In this document: positions 3,816 through 44,672 of the stretch, one piece after another
How the letters are laid out: each line of letters begins with the position of its first letter
Numbering within the stretch: the first letter of the stretch is position 1
Assembly (NCBI GenBank): GCA_022843305.1
Contig: JALHNX010000002.1
Coordinates: 1 to 64,000 of the forward strand
Source of the DNA: Pyrinomonadaceae bacterium
GTDB taxonomy: Bacteria > Acidobacteriota > Blastocatellia > Pyrinomonadales > Pyrinomonadaceae
Length of the DNA stretch: 64,000 bases
Direction: 5' to 3'
Position numbers and translations under genes: made by a program
Notes under the pieces: model-generated
Databases searched by the model: none
What the model was told of the DNA's origin: nothing
Seen by the model: the letters and a program-made list of their open reading frames with translations, nothing else

Positions 3816-3904
3816 AAATCAGTATAGCGAGCGGCAGCGAACACTTCCGCCAATCGGAAATTTTGAATATGAATCTAACTCGCTGCCGCTCGCTATACTG
3901 ATTT
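3816..3904. repeat. Long inverted repeat, 25-nt perfect arms
   Basis: AAATCAGTATAGCGAGCGGCAGCGA (3816-3840) / TCGCTGCCGCTCGCTATACTGATTT (3880-3904). Confidence 0.9.
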
Positions 3905-5277: not shown

Positions 5278-7302
5278 ATGATTCTGACCTTTCTGGTAAT
5301 TTTTCTGATAACCTGCGGCGGAACGGCTCTGACTTATCTTTATGAAAAGGAAGATTCCGTGCTGACGCGTCTGGCAACGGGCTGCGTTGTCGGTTCGGCG
5401 ATTTTTGCGACCGCCGGATTTCTGCTGGCGTGCTTTTTCGGGCTTTCAGTCGTGACGGTTTTGATCGCGCTTTTGCTCACGCTTTCGCCTTTGATTTTGT
5501 TCCGGCGGAAAAATTTCAAGCACCGATGGCGGCTCGATTGGCAGAAGGCGCGCAGCCGGACGCACGGCATCAGTCCGAAAAAATTCTGGCGCGTCGCTTA
5601 TTACGTTTTCGTTTTTCTGGTGCTGGCTTTCTTTTTCGACCGCGCGATGCTCGACCGACCGGACGGGATCTTTACGGGCGGTTCGCAGAATCTTGGCGAT
5701 CTGCCGTTTCATCTCGGCGCGATTTTCAGCTTCACGGAAGGCAATAATTTTCCGCCCGAAAACCCGTCGTTTGCAAACGCAAAATTTACATATCCTTTTT
5801 TGGCGGATTTCGTCACGGCATGTTTCGTCAAGCTCGGCGCGTCGGTGCGCGACGCGATGTTTACGCAGAATGTTTTTCTCGGCTTTTCGCTCGTTATTCT
5901 GCTCGAAAAATTCACCTTCAAACTGACGAACAACAAAACGGCGGGAAAGATCGCGCCGCTTTTACTGCTTTTCAGCGGCGGACTCGGTTTCCTCTGGTTT
6001 TTCCGTCATTACGGGCAAAGCGGGCAATCCTTAACGGAAATTTTATGGAATCTGCCCACAGATTTGACCATCGGCGGAGAATTTCGCTGGGGAAATTCGC
6101 TCGTCGTGCTGTTTCTGACGCAGAGAAGTCTGCTTTTCGGAATGCCGCTGGCACTGATCGCGCTGATGAAGATTTGGGAGATTTTTTCAAGTGGAAAAGT
6201 GGAAAAAATAGAAGGTGAAAAAGTGAAAACGTCCAAAAGTGAAAAAGCCGATGAAATCTCAGACCGAAACTTTTTCACTTTTTCACCTTTTCACTTTTCC
6301 ACTTTTTTAGTCGGTCTGCTCGCCGGAATGCTCGTCCTGATTCACGTGCATTCTCTGGCGGCATTGTTTGTCGTCTGCGCGATATTGTTTTTCTTTCGCT
6401 TTGATAAATGGCGCGAATGGATCGCGTTTGCGGTCGGCGTTTCGCTCGTTGCCGTGCCGGAACTCGTCTGGTCATTGGCGGGCAGCGCAAGCAATCTGAG
6501 CAAATTTATCGAGCCGCATTTCGGTTGGGATTCAAAAGACGAGAATTTTATCGTCTTCTGGGCAAAAAACATCGGACTTTTCGCGCCGGTTTTGATTGGC
6601 GGGCTGATTCTACTCTTAATGCGAAAAGACCGCGGCAACGATTCAAATCCAAAATCCAAAATCCAAAATCCAAAATCGGATGATCTTTTAATTTTTTATC
6701 TGCCGTTCGCGTTTCTTTTTCTGATCTCGAACACGTTTAAGCTTGCGCCGTGGGAATGGGATAATATCAAGGTTTTGATCTACTGGTTTGTCGGGTCATT
6801 GCCGTTTGCCGCGCTTTTTCTGGCGTGGCTCTGGGAAAAGAATTGGGGCTTGAAAATCGTTGCCGCCGCCTGTTTCATCGCTTTGACACTGTCGGGCGCA
6901 TTGGATGTCTGGCGGACGATGTCGGGGCAGATCAATTACAAGATTTTCGACAAGGACGCGGTCAGAATCGCCGAATTGATTAAAATCAGAACCGCGCCGA
7001 ACGCTTTGTTTCTTAACGCGCCGACGTATAATTCAGCGGTCGTTCTCTCGGGCAGACGTTCGCTGATGCGCTACAGCGGGCATCTTTCGTCTTACGGCAT
7101 TGATTACGAATCACGCGAATCGGAAGTCAAAAGAATTTATGAGGGAACCGCGCTTGCCGAACGGCTTTTGCAGAAAAATAATATCGAATATGTCATAATT
7201 TCGCCTGAAGAGAAGGCGAACATTACCGTCAGGGAAGAATTTTTCTCTAAATATCCGATAATTGCCGAAGCCGGCGAGTATAAAGTTTTAAAGGTGAAAT
7301 AA
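5278..7302 (+). CDS. Large multi-pass membrane protein, GT-C/dolichyl-phosphate mannosyltransferase-like
   Basis: 674 aa, many TM helices, soluble C-term; adjacent to an Agl23-like gene. Confidence 0.7.
   Translation: MILTFLVIFLITCGGTALTYLYEKEDSVLTRLATGCVVGSAIFATAGFLLACFFGLSVVTVLIALLLTLSPLILFRRKNFKHRWRLDWQKARSRTHGISPKKFWRVAYYVFVFLVLAFFFDRAMLDRPDGIFTGGSQNLGDLPFHLGAIFSFTEGNNFPPENPSFANAKFTYPFLADFVTACFVKLGASVRDAMFTQNVFLGFSLVILLEKFTFKLTNNKTAGKIAPLLLLFSGGLGFLWFFRHYGQSGQSLTEILWNLPTDLTIGGEFRWGNSLVVLFLTQRSLLFGMPLALIALMKIWEIFSSGKVEKIEGEKVKTSKSEKADEISDRNFFTFSPFHFSTFLVGLLAGMLVLIHVHSLAALFVVCAILFFFRFDKWREWIAFAVGVSLVAVPELVWSLAGSASNLSKFIEPHFGWDSKDENFIVFWAKNIGLFAPVLIGGLILLLMRKDRGNDSNPKSKIQNPKSDDLLIFYLPFAFLFLISNTFKLAPWEWDNIKVLIYWFVGSLPFAALFLAWLWEKNWGLKIVAAACFIALTLSGALDVWRTMSGQINYKIFDKDAVRIAELIKIRTAPNALFLNAPTYNSAVVLSGRRSLMRYSGHLSSYGIDYESRESEVKRIYEGTALAERLLQKNNIEYVIISPEEKANITVREEFFSKYPIIAEAGEYKVLKVK
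6183..6310. repeat. Word-type inverted repeat inside a CDS
   Basis: AAGTGGAAAAGTGGAAAAAATAGAAGGTGAAAAAGTGAAAAC near-complementary to ACTTTTTCACTTTTTCACCTTTTCACTTTTCCACTTTTTTAG; encodes SSGKVEKIEGEKVKTSKSEK...NFFTFSPFHFSTF in frame. Confidence 0.85.
6641..6679. repeat. ATCCAAAATCC tandem word repeat inside a CDS
   Basis: ATTCAAATCCAAAATCCAAAATCCAAAATCCAAAATCGGA, encoding NSNPKSKIQNPKSD. Confidence 0.85.
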
Positions 7303-9800: not shown

Positions 9801-9896
9801 GTCAGAACCGCCTGCGGTAGCGGGCGGGTTTTCTCGGTTAATTGAAAAGCCTCTCTGCCGACGCTTGACCCGCCCGCTACCGCAGGCGGTTCTGAC
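9801..9896. repeat. Long inverted repeat, 29-nt perfect arms
   Basis: GTCAGAACCGCCTGCGGTAGCGGGCGGGT (9801-9829) / ACCCGCCCGCTACCGCAGGCGGTTCTGAC (9868-9896); a third arm copy at 20019-20047. Confidence 0.95.
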
Positions 9897-15777: not shown

Positions 15778-15860
15778 TTTTGCCCACGAAACACACGAAA
15801 GACACTAAAAAATTTAAAGGTTTATTCATTTCGTTTATTTCGTGTGTTTCGTGGGCAAAA
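15778..15860. repeat. GCCCACGAAACACACGAAA-class inverted repeat (copy 1)
   Basis: TTTTGCCCACGAAACACACGAAA (15778-15800) / TTTCGTGTGTTTCGTGGGCAAAA (15838-15860). Confidence 0.95.
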
Positions 15861-31533: not shown

Positions 31534-32289
31534 ATGAATTCAAACGACATTGAAGAGATTTTAAATGCTCATTCAAAAGGAAATCTTTCGACGACCGAAG
31601 CAACCGACCGCCTGAAAAACCTGTCATACGAAAATATCGGCTACGCGCGCGTTGACCACGCGCGCGCCGTCCGGCAAGGTTTTCCCGAAGTAATTTTCGG
31701 GCAAGGGAAAACAAAAGAGCAGATCATCGGAATCTTTGAAAAGCTCGTCGCGCGTTCGCCGAATGTTTTGATAACGCGCACGACGGCGGAAGTTTACGGC
31801 GAAATCCGCAACGTTTTTACTGAAGCAGAATGGCACGCCGACGCGCGAATTATCCGCATTTTTCGTGATAAAACCGAACTCGGCGCGGGCGAAATCGCGA
31901 TCGTCACCGCCGGCACGAGCGATATTCCCGTGGCGGAAGAAGCCGCTCTGACGGCAGAAACGATGGGCAACCGCGTCAAAAGAATCTGGGACGCGGGCGT
32001 TGCCGGAATCCATCGAATCTTATCCGAACGCGAAATTCTGCAAAACTCGCGCGTCGTCGTGGTCGTCGCCGGAATGGAAGGCGCGTTGCCGTCGGTCGTT
32101 GGCGGTTTGGTCAAAGTTCCCGTCATCGCCGTGCCGACTTCGATCGGTTACGGCGCAAGTTTCGGCGGAATCGCCGCGCTTTTGGGAATGCTCAATTCGT
32201 GTGCGTCAAACGTCACGGTCGTCAATATTGACAACGGCTTCGGCGCAGGCTTTGTCGCCGGTTTAGTAAATCGAAAGTTTGAAGAGTAA
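31534..32289 (+). CDS. larB: Nickel pincer cofactor biosynthesis protein LarB
   Basis: [88 protein letters not shown]. Confidence 0.9.
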
Positions 32290-32366
32290 TTGACCACCAA
32301 GCCGCGAAGAACACAAAGAAATTTATATTTAATAACTTTGTGTTCTTCGCGGCTTGGCGGTCAATT
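32288..32366. repeat. Word-type IR, 31-nt arms, abutting larB stop
   Basis: AATTGACCACCAAGCCGCGAAGAACACAAAG (32288-32318) / CTTTGTGTTCTTCGCGGCTTGGCGGTCAATT (32336-32366), 1 mismatch. Confidence 0.95.
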
Positions 32367-32372
32367 AAAAGA

Positions 32373-35335: not shown

Positions 35336-35437
35336 AATTTCTCCTTCAGGCAGTAAAAGAACGCTTGTTATTTGGAGATTTTGCAAGGATTTTTGGTTGC
35401 TTTCCGGCAGGCTTTCGATTATTTTAGACAAGAAAAA

Positions 35438-35516
35438 GTTCATAGAGTTTATAGAGTTCTTAGAGTTTAAGGATTTTTACTCTAAAAACCCTACGAACTC
35501 TATAAACTCTATGAAC
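35438..35516. repeat. GAGTTTATAGAGTTC word-type IR, 22-nt perfect arms
   Basis: GTTCATAGAGTTTATAGAGTTC (35438-35459) / GAACTCTATAAACTCTATGAAC (35495-35516). Confidence 0.95.
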
Positions 35517-35529
35517 TCTTCTTTGTAAA

Positions 35530-35790: not shown

Positions 35791-37008
35791 ATGATACAGA
35801 CGCTTTCGATAACCGACAATCCCCTGGAAAAACGCGTTTCGATTACGGAAGGCGAGCATCTGATCGGTGAATTTATCGGCGACGATAAAGGCGCGACGCT
35901 GATCGTTTTCGGAAGCGTTCACGGCAACGAAGCCGCCGGTGCGCTGGCTTTGCAAAAGATTGCCGCCCGTTTGCCGGATTTTGCGCCGAAACTTCGCGGC
36001 AGAGTTTATTTTCTGGCGGGAAACACGCGGGCAATCGCCACCGGCGCAAGATTTATTGATTCGGATCTGAATCGTCATTGGACGACGGAAAATATTAAAA
36101 ATAACCGTCCCGATTCGCCGATCAAAACGAAACGCGCCGAAGACCTCGAACAAACCGAGCTTTCGGCGATTCTCGAAAAAATCCTGCAAACTGCAAAATC
36201 AGAAGTTTACGCGATGGATTTGCATTCGACATCGGCTGACGGCGTGCCGTTTGCGACCGTCGGCGACACGCTTCGCAACCGCGATTTTGCACAAAAATTC
36301 CCCGTTACGATCCTGCTCGGCATCGAAGAACAGCTCGAAGGCACGATTCTCGAATATCTCAACAACGCGGGCGCGGTCACGTTCGGCTACGAAGGCGGAC
36401 AGCATTTTTCGGGAAAAACGCTTCTGACGCATGAAGCATTGGTCTGGCTCGCGCTCGTTCATTCGGGAATTCTCGAAAAAGAAGATTTGCCGGATTTTGA
36501 AAAACACGAAGAATTTTTACGGGAAACGACCGGCAAGCCGCGGATCGTCGAAATCCGCTATCGCCACGCGATTACCGAAGCGGACGAATTTAAGATGGAA
36601 TTCGGGTTCGAGAATTTCCAGCCCGTCCGGCGCGGCGAGCTTCTCGCGCAGCAGAAAAGCGGTGCGATTTATGCCGGTGAAACGGGATTGATCTTGATGC
36701 CGCTTTATCAAAAATTGGGCGAGGACGGATTTTTTCTCGGACGCGAAATCGCGCCGTTCTGGTTAAAACTTTCGGGCGTTTTGCGAAAACTGCGCGTCGG
36801 CAATTTGATGCATCTGCTTCCGGGCGTGAAAAAATCCGCGTATGACGAAGACGTTTTCGAGATCAACACACGCGTCGCCAGATTTTTTCCTTTGCAGATT
36901 TTTCACCTTCTCGGTTTTCGCAAACGCCGGCAGCGCGGCGATAAACTAATCGTCAGCCGACGACGGCACGACACGAAAAGTCCTTTTAAATCAAATTCGC
37001 AGGGATAA
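35791..37008 (+). CDS. Succinylglutamate desuccinylase/aspartoacylase family protein
   Basis: LIVFGSVHGNEAAGALALQKIAARL; FIDSDLNRHW; AMDLHSTSADGVPFATVG. Confidence 0.88.
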   Translation: MIQTLSITDNPLEKRVSITEGEHLIGEFIGDDKGATLIVFGSVHGNEAAGALALQKIAARLPDFAPKLRGRVYFLAGNTRAIATGARFIDSDLNRHWTTENIKNNRPDSPIKTKRAEDLEQTELSAILEKILQTAKSEVYAMDLHSTSADGVPFATVGDTLRNRDFAQKFPVTILLGIEEQLEGTILEYLNNAGAVTFGYEGGQHFSGKTLLTHEALVWLALVHSGILEKEDLPDFEKHEEFLRETTGKPRIVEIRYRHAITEADEFKMEFGFENFQPVRRGELLAQQKSGAIYAGETGLILMPLYQKLGEDGFFLGREIAPFWLKLSGVLRKLRVGNLMHLLPGVKKSAYDEDVFEINTRVARFFPLQIFHLLGFRKRRQRGDKLIVSRRRHDTKSPFKSNSQG

Positions 37009-37023
37009 AAACTGAAGAATTCC

Positions 37024-37105
37024 GCCCGCGAAACACACGAAAAAAACGAAAATAAAAACAGGAACTGAAAATTCTTTTTTCGTTTCTTTCGTGTGTTTCG
37101 CGGGC
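37024..37105. repeat. GCCCRCGAAACACACGAAA-class IR (copy 2)
   Basis: GCCCGCGAAACACACGAAA (37024-37042) / TTTCGTGTGTTTCGCGGGC (37087-37105). Confidence 0.95.
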
Positions 37106-37122
37106 AATCTCTAATCAGTTTT

Positions 37123-37220: not shown

Positions 37221-39143
37221 ATGGGCGAAAAGAAAGTTACAACTCAAACCGACGAATCGCAGATGCGGCAATTTACGAAAGCCGTTTTGAACGATTTGCA
37301 GGCACTCGAAAAAATGTTTGCCGGCGGGCAGATGGAATCCGGCGTTTTGCGAATCGGCGCGGAGCAAGAGATGTTTCTTGTTGATTCGTCGTTTCATCCC
37401 GCGCCGCTCGTGCTGGAAATTATCGAAGCCGCGAAAGACGGGCGGCTGACGACCGAGATCGGGCGTTTTAATCTCGAAGCCAACCTGACACCGCTTGATT
37501 TTACGGGCGATTGTCTTGGAAAACTCGAAACCGAGCTTAACGAAATTATCGGCATCGTCAAAAACGCGGCGAAAAAGTTTGATGCCGATACGGTTTTGTG
37601 CGGAATTTTGCCGACGATTCAGATGTCGGATTTAGCCGAGAAAAATTTAACCCCAAGCCCGCGTTATAAGGAACTGAACCGTGTTTTGACCGCGCTGCAC
37701 GGCGAAGAACGCATCGTTCACATCAAAGGTCTGGACGAAATAAAACTGCATCTGCAGGATACTTTCACCGAATTCTGCAACACGAGCTTTCAGATTCATC
37801 TGCAGGTTTCAAACGACGAATTCGCGCGGTATTACAACTGGGCGCAGGCGATCACCGCGCCGGTTCTGGCTTCGGCGGTCAATTCGCCGATTCTTTTGGG
37901 GCATCGTTTGTGGCACGAAACGCGGCTCGCGCTTTTTCAGCACGCGACCGACGAACGCTCGACTGTTCAGCAGGAACGAAGCCGTCCGGCGCGCGTTACG
38001 TTCGGCAGAGATTGGGTGAAAGATTCGATTCTCGAAATCTTTCACGAAGATGTCGCGCGTTTCCGCATTATTTTAACGCGCGAATTAGAGGAAAATTCGC
38101 TCGAAGTTTTGGAGCAGGGAAAAATTCCGGGCTTGCACGCGTGGCGGATGCACAACGGCACAATCTGGCGTTGGAATCGCGCCTGTTACGGCGTGATGAA
38201 CGGCAAACCGAGCCTGCGCATTGAAGCCCGTTTTTTGCCGTCGGGTCCGACCGTCGCCGACGAAATGGCAAATTCGGCGTTTTTTCTCGGTTTGATGACC
38301 GCGTTGCCGGAAGAATTCTGCGATGTTACAAGGACGAAACTTTCTTTTGACAACGCGAAGATCAATTTTTTCACCGCCGCGCGTTACGGTTTGAAATCGC
38401 AGATCGCATGGATTGACGGCAAAAATTATCCGGCGCAAAAACTGATTTTAGAAGACCTTCTGCCGCGCGCGCGGCACGGCTTGCGTTCGGCAAACATTGA
38501 CGCGGCGGACATCGAAAAATATCTCGGGATTTTGGAAGAACGCGTTTCGATGGAAAAAACCGGCGCACAATGGATGCTCGATTCGCTTGCCAATATGGAC
38601 AAAGCCGCGAAACCGAACGTGCGACTGCGGACGCTGACCGAAGCGATGCTCAAAAATCAGGAAACAGGCGCGCCGCTTCATCAATGGAGTCTCGCGGAAA
38701 TCGAAGAAAAGACCGACTGGATTGACAATTATCTGACGGTCGAGCAGTTTATGTCGCGTGATCTGTTCACCGTGCGCCCCGAAGATATTGTCGAACTGGC
38801 GGCGAATCTGATGCAGTGGCGGCACATTCGCCACGTTCCGGTCGAAAACGAAAAAGGCGATCTCCTCGGCATCGTCTCGCACCGCGATCTGCTCAAACTT
38901 TTTGCCGAAGAGCGCGAACATATTTTCCGTGAAATCATCGTCAAAGACGTGATGCAAACGAATCTGACAACTGTTTCGCCCGAAACCAGAACGCTCGACG
39001 CGCTTTATATGATGCGCGAAAAAAACATCGGCTGTCTGCCGGTCGTTAAAAATAAAAAGCTCGTCGGACTGATCACGGCGCACGATTTTCTGACGGTTTC
39101 GACGCGGCTTTTCGAGGAAAGATTGAAAAAGCAGACGAAGTAA
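37221..39143 (+). CDS. GCS2-family glutamate-cysteine ligase-like / carboxylate-amine ligase fused to a CBS-domain pair
   Basis: RIGAEQEMFLVDSSFHPAPLVLEIIE, LTTEIGRFNLEANLTPLDF, LRIEARFLPSGPTVADEMANSAFFLGLM; C-term VEQFMSRDLFTVRPEDIVELAANLMQWRHIRHVPVENEKGDLLGIVSHRDLLK and second CBS. Confidence 0.85.
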   Translation: MGEKKVTTQTDESQMRQFTKAVLNDLQALEKMFAGGQMESGVLRIGAEQEMFLVDSSFHPAPLVLEIIEAAKDGRLTTEIGRFNLEANLTPLDFTGDCLGKLETELNEIIGIVKNAAKKFDADTVLCGILPTIQMSDLAEKNLTPSPRYKELNRVLTALHGEERIVHIKGLDEIKLHLQDTFTEFCNTSFQIHLQVSNDEFARYYNWAQAITAPVLASAVNSPILLGHRLWHETRLALFQHATDERSTVQQERSRPARVTFGRDWVKDSILEIFHEDVARFRIILTRELEENSLEVLEQGKIPGLHAWRMHNGTIWRWNRACYGVMNGKPSLRIEARFLPSGPTVADEMANSAFFLGLMTALPEEFCDVTRTKLSFDNAKINFFTAARYGLKSQIAWIDGKNYPAQKLILEDLLPRARHGLRSANIDAADIEKYLGILEERVSMEKTGAQWMLDSLANMDKAAKPNVRLRTLTEAMLKNQETGAPLHQWSLAEIEEKTDWIDNYLTVEQFMSRDLFTVRPEDIVELAANLMQWRHIRHVPVENEKGDLLGIVSHRDLLKLFAEEREHIFREIIVKDVMQTNLTTVSPETRTLDALYMMREKNIGCLPVVKNKKLVGLITAHDFLTVSTRLFEERLKKQTK

Positions 39144-39146
39144 TGT

Positions 39147-39476
39147 TTCACCACAGAGACACAAAGGACATAGAATTTTATTATGATTTTCGTTAGTGAA
39201 CTAAAAGTAATGTTTTGATAAATTGCCTCCAACTTTAGTTGGAGGAGCGATTTGATGAGTTTTCCGGCTTGAGCCGAAAATCAGAAAAATATCAATCATC
39301 CGATCAGCTTGAGCTAAAGCAATTCGGAATTTATTTAATATTATTATTCGGCTGAAGCCGTTTTTTCCATTGCTCTTAACCTCCAACTAAAGTTGGAGGC
39401 AATTGAAAAACACCCGTCAGCATTACTTTTAATTCACTATCAGATTTTCTTTGTAATCTTTGTGTTTTGTGATGAA
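39147..39476. repeat. Concentric nested inverted repeats (at least three layers)
   Basis: Outer TTCACCACAGAGACACAAAGGACATAGAA / TTCTTTGTAATCTTTGTGTTTTGTGATGAA (degenerate); middle TAGTGAACTAAAAGTAATG (39194-39212)/CATTACTTTTAATTCACTA (39421-39439); inner AATTGCCTCCAACT (39221-39234)/AGTTGGAGGCAATT (39391-39404). Confidence 0.85.
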
Positions 39477-39556
39477 TTCCATCGGTTCGTCAAATAATTT
39501 TAGCTTTTCATCACAGATTTGTTGCCGAAATTTCAATTTTGGGTTTCAATGAGAAA

Positions 39557-40663
39557 ATGACCGAAGAACCGCTTTTCAAGCGCAGATGGGTTAAATGGAG
39601 TACGATCTGGGCAATCTGGACGCTGTTCGGATTCTTTTTTACCAGCCAATTTGCCTTACAAAATCAGCTTTCAAGAAATCCCGTGCCGTTCTGGCAAATC
39701 CTGACGTGGCAGATGGTTTCCGGCTACGTCTGGTTTGCAATGAGTCCGTTGCTTTTGTGGCTCGCGCAAAAGTTTCCGTTTGAAGCGAACAAGTGGCAAA
39801 AATCCGTGCTGGTTCATCTTGTCGCCAGCGTCGTGCTTGCCTTTTTTCAACAGGCGATTGACACGTTTTTACTGACGCGGCTCGGTTATCCGCCGAATCG
39901 CCAGTTTGCGAATTTCCTCGAAGCCTATAAATATTTTATTTTCATCAACCTGCATCTGAGCATTTTGATCTACTGGGGCGTGGTCGGCATCAGATCGGCA
40001 TACAGTTATTATCAAAAATACCGCGAACGCGAGCTGATAACTTCTAAATTAGAAGCACGGCTCGCCACTTCGCGGCTGCAGGTTTTAAAAATGCAGCTTC
40101 ACCCGCACTTTCTTTTCAACACTTTAAACGCGATCTCCGAGTTGATCTACAAAGACCCCGAATCCGCCGAACGGATGATCGGCGATCTGAGCGATCTGCT
40201 GCGAATGTCGTTTGAAAAATTGGAAGTGCAGGAAATTTCGCTCAAACAGGAACTCGAATTTCTGCGGAAATATCTCGAAATCGAACAGATGCGTTTTCAG
40301 GATCGTTTACGGGTCGAGATGGAAATTTCGCCCGACACTCTGGACGCGAGCGTGCCGAATATGATCTTGCAGCCTTTGGTCGAAAACGCCATCAAACACG
40401 GCATCGCGCCGCGTTCGACGGGCGGAAAAATTCAAATCGAAGCGCATCGAAATAACGGCAGTCTTGAATTGACCGTTTCGGATAACGGCATCGGCGTGCC
40501 GTTCAAAGACGTGGAACATCTTTCGGAAGGTGTCGGGCTGTCGAACACGCGCCGCCGTCTGAAACATCTCTACGGCGACAAACATAAATTCGATCTGACA
40601 AATGCCGAAACGAGCGGTTTGCGGGTTAATTTAACAATTCCGTTCCGAGAAGTGGAAAACTAA
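39557..40663 (+). CDS. LytS/YehU-type sensor histidine kinase
   Basis: LQVLKMQLHPHFLFNTLNAISELIYKDPESAERMIGDLSDLLRMSFEK; N-box LQPLVENAIKHGIAPRSTGG; SDNGIGVP. Confidence 0.92.
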   Translation: MTEEPLFKRRWVKWSTIWAIWTLFGFFFTSQFALQNQLSRNPVPFWQILTWQMVSGYVWFAMSPLLLWLAQKFPFEANKWQKSVLVHLVASVVLAFFQQAIDTFLLTRLGYPPNRQFANFLEAYKYFIFINLHLSILIYWGVVGIRSAYSYYQKYRERELITSKLEARLATSRLQVLKMQLHPHFLFNTLNAISELIYKDPESAERMIGDLSDLLRMSFEKLEVQEISLKQELEFLRKYLEIEQMRFQDRLRVEMEISPDTLDASVPNMILQPLVENAIKHGIAPRSTGGKIQIEAHRNNGSLELTVSDNGIGVPFKDVEHLSEGVGLSNTRRRLKHLYGDKHKFDLTNAETSGLRVNLTIPFREVEN

Positions 40664-40664
40664 A

Positions 40665-40754
40665 TTTGCCCACGAAACACACGAAAAGAACGAAAATAAA
40701 ACAAAATTTTTAAGATTTCTTTTTTTCGTTTCTTTCGTGTGTTTCGTGGGCAAA
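40665..40754. repeat. GCCCACGAAACACACGAAA-class IR (copy 3) between HK and RR genes
   Basis: TTTGCCCACGAAACACACGAAA (40665-40686) / TTTCGTGTGTTTCGTGGGCAAA (40733-40754), 22 nt perfect. Confidence 0.95.
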
Positions 40755-40765
40755 AAATCTTAAAA

Positions 40766-41533
40766 ATGAAAATCAGAACATTAATCGTTGATGACGAACC
40801 TTTGGCGCGTGACCGCGTGAAGCGGCTTTTGCGCGATGAAACCGACATTACGATCATCGGCGAATGCGGCAACGGCGCGGAAGCAATCAAAACCATCAAA
40901 GCGGAAAAGCCCGATCTGGTTTTTCTCGATATTCAAATGCCCGAAAAAAACGGCTTTGAAGTCATCAAAGCACTCGACGAGAAAACCGTTCCGACCGTGA
41001 TTTTCGTGACGGCTTACGACCAATACGCGCTGCAGGCGTTTGACGTTCACGCGCTCGATTATCTCCTGAAACCTTTTAACCGCGAGCGTCTGCACCGCGC
41101 CGTCACCCGCGCACGCGAACTGATCGAAAACAAAAATCGCGGGAATCTCGATGAAAGATTGGCATCCCTGATCGCCGATCTGAAAATGGAGAAAAAATAT
41201 CTCGAACGCTTGGTCGTCAAATCCGTCGGACGCGTTTTCTTTTTGAAAATTGATGAGATTGACTGGATCGAAGCCGCCGGAAATTATCTGAAACTGCACG
41301 TCGGACGCGAATCGCATCTGATCCGCGAAACGATGAATTCTATCGAAGCGAAATTAAATCCCGACAAATTCCTGCGCATTCACCGCTCGACGGTCGTCAA
41401 CATTGACCGAATCAAGGAACTCCACCCGATGTTCAGCGGCGATTACGCCGTTATCCTCAGAAACGGCGCGGAACTGACGCTTTCCCGAAACTACCGCGAA
41501 AGATTTTTAGAGCTTTTCGAGAATCAAACCTGA
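40766..41533 (+). CDS. LytTR family response regulator
   Basis: MKIRTLIVDDEPLARDRVKRLL, DLVFLDIQMPEKNGFEV, FVTAYDQYALQAFDVHALDYLLKPF, LytTR C-term (FLRIHRSTVVNIDRIKEL). Confidence 0.95.
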   Translation: MKIRTLIVDDEPLARDRVKRLLRDETDITIIGECGNGAEAIKTIKAEKPDLVFLDIQMPEKNGFEVIKALDEKTVPTVIFVTAYDQYALQAFDVHALDYLLKPFNRERLHRAVTRARELIENKNRGNLDERLASLIADLKMEKKYLERLVVKSVGRVFFLKIDEIDWIEAAGNYLKLHVGRESHLIRETMNSIEAKLNPDKFLRIHRSTVVNIDRIKELHPMFSGDYAVILRNGAELTLSRNYRERFLELFENQT

Positions 41534-44588: not shown

Positions 44589-44592
44589 AAAT

Positions 44593-44672
44593 TAGCCGCA
44601 GATGAACGCGGATAAACGCGGATTTTTAATTCAAGTTTTTATCCGCGAAATCCGCGTTCATCTGCGGCTAAG
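44593..44672. repeat. Word-type IR, 23-nt perfect arms
   Basis: TTAGCCGCAGATGAACGCGGATaaacgcggat (44593-44624) / atccgcgaaATCCGCGTTCATCTGCGGCTAA (44642-44672). Confidence 0.95.

Follow-up and report, generated by a model that had tools for sequence, protein, structure and literature searches.

The 64-kb window (the whole stretch of DNA analyzed) contains, between a gene that the first-pass annotation named GCS2-CBS and one whose product, judging from its sequence, is a LytS-like histidine kinase, a single long nested hairpin (39149-39474) with three concentric inverted-repeat layers (Table 1). These layers, described in that annotation as sharing one center, were all recovered there by arm alignment and folding, and its finer details were borne out as well: each inner arm is a CCTCCAACT(TT/AA)AGTTGGAGG palindrome, and the small GGCTTGAGCC and GGCTGAAGCC hairpins are present in the inner layer. 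The RNA fold reached -122.8 kcal/mol versus -66.0 ± 4.8 for shuffles (z = -11.8) and the DNA fold gave z = -11.9; the minimum-energy structure was the concentric nest, and no shuffle equalled the native RNA or DNA fold. Arm similarity rises inwards, from about 70% complementarity in the outer layer (30 aligned columns, gaps included) to 86% in the middle layer (18/21 over the full terminal repeat and 18/19 over arms 39194-39212 and 39421-39439) and 93% in the inner layer (25/27 columns, terminal palindromes included).

Table 1. Features of the nested hairpin and its neighboring genes (window coordinates; TIR, terminal repeat; TSD, target duplication)
Feature	Coordinates	Strand	Evidence
GCS2-CBS gene (name from first-pass annotation), upstream	37221..39143	+	ORF; order kept in relatives
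Outer layer, left arm (CACCACAGAGACACAAAG), octamer-type quasi-palindrome	39149..39166	.	family recurrence in genome
TSD, left copy TGATTTTC	39184..39191	.	7/8 identical to right copy
Middle layer, 250-bp MITE (shell A) with IS1-family TIRs, carrying the inner unit	39192..39441	.	recurrence, TSDs, autonomous IS1 in G008/G001
Shell A, left TIR	39192..39212	+	arm match, recurrence, TSD boundaries
Inner layer (P1), putative transposase-less IS200/IS605-like derivative, inverted palindrome doublet	39221..39404	.	comparison with intact elements
P1, left terminal palindrome CCTCCAACTTTAGTTGGAGG	39226..39245	.	recurrence, covariation
P1, internal hairpin CGGCTTGAGCCGAA	39265..39278	.	corresponds to subterminal GGCTTTAGCC hairpins of intact IS
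P1, central hairpin AGCTTGAGCTAAAGC	39306..39320	.	
P1, internal hairpin TTCGGCTGAAGCCG	39347..39360	.	
P1, right terminal palindrome CCTCCAACTAAAGTTGGAGG	39380..39399	.	recurrence, covariation
Shell A, right TIR	39421..39441	-	arm match, recurrence, TSD boundaries
TSD, right copy AGATTTTC	39442..39449	.	7/8 identical to left copy
Outer layer, right arm (CTTTGTGTTTTGTGATG)	39458..39474	.	fold, arm alignment
Putative LytS-like histidine kinase gene (from sequence), downstream	39539..40663	+	ORF; relatives
LytTR-type response regulator ORF, after kinase gene	40739-41533		ORF

A search of the host's own genome (G000; an incomplete assembly of 5.72 Mb in 322 contigs, 95% complete) with positions 39140-39500 gave 90 matches that separated cleanly by layer, and the census of layers draws on such searches and on retrieved stretches of this assembly. 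Each layer recurs elsewhere in the genome, which together with the concentric pairing is what the first-pass annotation had made its reading depend on. Middle and inner layers together (query positions 55-300) were found at C28, C188, C170, and C64 (92-95% identity) and, interrupted and matched in two pieces, at C35 (87-91%); the inner layer alone (query about 75-265) was present at roughly twenty further places, mostly at 69-77%; and the middle arm enclosed a different interior at C229, C39, C168, C182, and C37. The family of the outer layer has 19 half-sites, compared with 0 for a reversed control, and six complete outer-type palindromes carry no insert (C100, C77, C163, C223, C70, and C107). 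Within the window, the inner palindrome and middle arm had no other occurrence, and shuffles yielded 0.

The intergenic DNA of the window has about 16 strong palindromes, many with octamer periodicity and of no named family (e.g., 35423-35529, 37008-37122, 32287-32367, 15778-15860, 44592-44671, and 6195-6306). The octamer motif, as a string, was found in the literature in two unrelated animal-biology papers only. Another octamer palindrome occupies the kinase/response regulator junction (40665-40754), where a different octamer, GTGAAAAAG, makes up the palindrome present in the genomes G002 and G001; it looks as if this site had been refilled by different repeats.

The middle layer, shell A, was delimited by its target duplications. 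Many other copies have perfect TSDs of 8-9 bp, while that of the window copy matches at 7/8 positions; because both this duplication and the terminal repeats (18/21) have decayed, the insertion does not seem to be recent. Shell A encodes no ORF of note and no transposase. When up to 2 mismatches were allowed, its terminal repeat was detected in 15 genomes out of the 162 from the class. In two of them, G008 and the same-genus genome G001, a pair of shell A-type repeats encloses a 253-amino-acid IS1-family transposase (the G008 protein scores 195 bits with NF033558, and both proteins score 78-81 bits with PF03400). These autonomous elements, about 0.84 kb long (about 0.85 kb in G008 and 0.83 kb in G001), have GTAGTGAAC[T/C]AAAAGTAATG at both ends, as in shell A, and that of G008 (L198) is flanked by an 8-bp duplication, AAATGTTC. 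An IS1 transposase (PF03400) was not matched in the 95%-complete assembly of the host itself, so that the mobilizer is deduced from the relatives: an IS1 transposase would have moved the element in trans. Shell A thus resembles IS1-family MITEs in being short and non-coding, with the TIRs of an autonomous IS1 and 8-9 bp TSDs. It differs from them in that its interior, past the terminal ~30 bp, is not IS1-derived and consists of palindromic cargo of another repeat family, which varies between copies and genomes.

In the window copy that cargo is P1, which starts with AATTGCC plus a palindrome and ends with the inverted form. Its palindrome has 46 sites in the host genome, weak ones included, most of them paired about 150-170 bp apart, and P1-type sequences flank Y1 transposase genes at C25 and C8 and in several relatives. 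The intact element, about 640 bp long in G025, G008, and G076, has one P1 half on either side of the gene. When the P1 halves were compared with the ends of four intact IS200-like elements, three (L245, L246, and L249) gave scores that summed to 86-216, whereas shuffles peaked at about 50-62; the ends of the fourth, a more distant element from G011 (L250), did not match P1. The C25 protein scores 65.9 bits with NF033573 (IS200/IS605 family; cut-off 55) and has IS200-type transposases among its PDB relatives. Variation in the P1 hairpins is compensated, with 96% of cells paired and 41 double-sided changes, a level that no shuffle attained. Going by these comparisons, P1 is best described as a transposase-less IS200/IS605-like unit with a REPIN-like arrangement. 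It shares with REPINs/RAYTs (PMC3116915, PMC2817692) the inverted palindrome doublet, the long hairpin with compensatory changes, and the flanking of a Y1 transposase gene. A canonical REPIN/RAYT label was nevertheless rejected on the grounds of foot sequence and transposase score: the P1 palindromes have no GT[AG]G foot, the foot being AATTGCC in the copies compared, and the P1-linked transposase belongs by score to IS200/IS605, reaching only 28.5 bits with the RAYT model NF047646 (cut-off 80). Also unlike REPINs, P1 is present in tens of copies, not hundreds.

Comparison of the loci L243, L244, L273, and L274 showed the IS200-like transposases of two genera of the family to be 89% identical to each other and 62-63% identical to proteins of Flavobacterium and Algoriphagus (Bacteroidota), similarities that suggest horizontal spread. 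Doublets are also found elsewhere in the window. One at 9801-9896 (GTCAGAACCGCCTGCGGTAGCGGGCGGGT, inverted) is of a type also flanking the Y1 transposase genes of C4 and C78 in the same genome; another at 3816-3904 (AATCAGTATAGCGAGCGG..) is of the P3 type, which flanks a Y1 gene at C143 and is shell A cargo at C133.

It is scarcely credible that replication errors (template switching or hairpin-templated repair), and not insertion, generated the palindromes of the nest on the spot. Octamer-type quasi-palindromes could grow in that way, and this genome is rich in strong palindromes, the window alone having 16, but the TSDs, the termini matching complete insertion sequences, and the near-identical dispersed copies require transposition for the middle and inner layers. 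The outer layer may have formed in place.

The first-pass annotation had read the nest as successive insertions of hairpin units, each into the loop of an older one. In part this holds, since independently recurring hairpin units are indeed nested and the TSD of the middle layer lies inside the outer loop. The inner unit, however, is already inside the middle shell in five other copies in the genome, which have the same shell, cargo, and junctions as the window composite and 8-9 bp duplications, and which lie in different sequence surroundings. P1 sequences, clustered in consistent orientation given that the units are near-palindromic, are 93-97% identical within shell A of this genome (five copies compared) and 70-84% identical between shell A and a second shell type, shell B. 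The clustering by shell and the identical junctions indicate that shell and cargo were joined before arrival at the window locus, and the clustering points to capture followed by joint amplification. A series of three insertions at the locus itself, i.e., an outer hairpin, an empty middle element into its loop, and the inner unit into the loop of the latter, is accordingly highly improbable: although the arms become more alike inwards and the layers recur independently, this sequence of events is already contradicted by the shared composite, the P1 units of shell A in this genome form one tight cluster, and no empty shell was found among 45 shells A and B.

The locus is thus, in all likelihood, a nest of three mobile or repetitive families in which a composite inserted into the outer palindrome, and very probably it preserves the trace of two insertions instead of three: that of the outer palindrome, followed by that of a ready-made composite. 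This would best account for the recurrence of the layers, the TSDs, the autonomous IS1 elements with the same ends, the IS200-like parents whose ends match P1, and the junction of relatives, which is uninterrupted (see below). An octamer-type palindrome would have arisen or inserted just past the GCS2-CBS stop codon, and its AT-rich loop would then have received an IS1-ended MITE in one transposition event that duplicated 8-9 bp of target. Earlier, in an ancestor and elsewhere, this MITE would have gained a transposase-less IS200/IS605-like unit (the REPIN-like doublet) as its interior, the composite of both then amplifying as one unit. No duplication was seen at the P1/shell junctions of the copies compared; this would be expected for IS200-type insertion and leaves the entry of P1 into the shell to be deduced by comparison. 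We infer that a pair of IS1 ends existed first and was entered by the inner unit, and not that ends were added around P1.

Four relatives (G002, G003, G025, and G029) keep the order GCS2-CBS then kinase with a short junction that has none of the three layers; G002 is of the same genus, and its kinase is 84% identical. The proposal that the outermost layer is the oldest finds support in the recurrence of the layers, the TSD, and this uninterrupted junction; the divergence of its arms, which had been put forward as the sign of age, does not by itself show the order of insertion because octamer palindromes can start imperfect. The same junctions bear on a regulatory reading, in which selection favors the nest, placed between GCS2-CBS and the kinase operon, as a regulatory RNA or an attenuator of transcription and mobility is secondary. 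The fold is very stable, the P1 hairpins show compensatory changes, and the nest splits a gene order that relatives conserve, but it is absent from the junction in 4/4 relatives compared, its other copies have different sequence surroundings, and the P1 covariation fits recognition by a transposase equally well. Moreover, a scan of the nest for intrinsic terminators and promoters found nothing clearly above shuffles (no terminator-like site; 3 promoter-like sites versus 1.4), and an Rfam search returned only chance matches under the gathering scores. We regard a regulatory origin as very unlikely, and the nest as presumably selfish rather than adaptive.

Shells and cargoes occur in many combinations. 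Shell A contains P1 in the window family, a variant (CCACTAGC) in genera g6 and g4, and in G002 a P1 that itself contains a further palindrome doublet; its other cargoes are P2 (CGCCGGGAGCGCACGC), P3, another doublet in G016, and octamer palindromes in G079 and G029. Shell B (AGGGCTTTCCTATAAAA), with duplications of about 11 bp, carries P1, other doublets, or octamer palindromes. Two further shells, C and D, also carry P1, and in Flavobacterium P1-type units lie within another small inverted-repeat shell (GTAACTATTCAG). Across genomes, the IS1-type shells and the second shell type carry cargoes of at least seven types. The order of nesting can also reverse, octamer palindromes being the host in the window and the guest in other genomes. 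In 44 of the 45 A and B shells, the palindromic character of the interior equalled or exceeded that of the top 1% of shuffles; the sole exception (L033) has an assembly gap there. Given the 44/45 palindromic cargoes, the cargo diversity, the reversed orders, and the Flavobacterium shell, we tentatively raise a broader reading, which we consider rather less probable than not: palindromic elements that work by unrelated mechanisms (DDE-type MITEs, IS200-like doublets, octamer repeats) might systematically nest in each other's hairpin centers, with DDE terminal-repeat pairs amplifying only with hairpin cargo and cargo capture hence being the normal way in which MITEs form in these bacteria.

The ingredients are already known: IS1 MITEs, IS200-derived palindromes, REP dimers in palindromes (PMC3733652), and insertion sequences in REPs (PMC1525189). 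Section 7 of PMC3733652 mentions REP dimers inside larger palindromes for A. variabilis, H. neapolitanus, and T. roseum; in the first two species, no large palindrome devoid of REP sequences was found (PMC3733652). The likeness lies in doublets within a larger palindrome, as P1 in its shell; that paper, however, takes the palindromes to be targets, without identifying them, whereas the shells described here, with transposon ends and duplications, have been mobile, the pair moving together. Insertion sequences targeting REPs (PMC1525189) are similarly mobile DNA landing in or near extragenic palindromes, but those are whole insertion sequences with specific targets, while here a MITE with cargo lands and the enrichment for palindromes is only moderate. 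We found no description in open papers of a cargo set shared combinatorially among the shells of different transposons. Palindromes captured between terminal repeats and then co-amplified would provide a simple origin for MITEs whose interiors are unrelated to their own transposase, and a possible explanation for the 2013 report of REP dimers within larger palindromes that never occur without them (PMC3733652).

With dozens of TSD-bearing insertions in one bacterial family, attraction to hairpin loops becomes testable. Leaving out the element and one copy of the duplication, and taking a score of 16 or more as a palindrome, 11/45 insertion sites (6/28 for shell A, 5/17 for shell B) were inside a pre-existing palindrome; the corresponding proportion for the window was 8.5% of its intergenic positions (P = 0.001) and 11% of the AT-rich ones (P = 0.008). 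The strong loop targeting expected at first was rejected on this count: enrichment is moderate, most insertions are elsewhere, and part of the enrichment may be due to the loops being AT-rich and to palindromes being abundant in intergenic DNA.

Nests of greater depth were also observed. In G002 (L231, L232, and L241), shell A lies within octamer palindromes and contains P1 remnants with another doublet inside, i.e., four or more layers. A further hairpin element (CTACCGTTTATACACA.. / ..TGTGTATAAACGATAG) has inserted in or beside a P1 terminal palindrome in one shell A copy and two shell B copies (L049 630-760 at C35, L046 130-260 at C15, and L047 550-670 at C85); the C35 copy has the duplication ACTTTAGTT.
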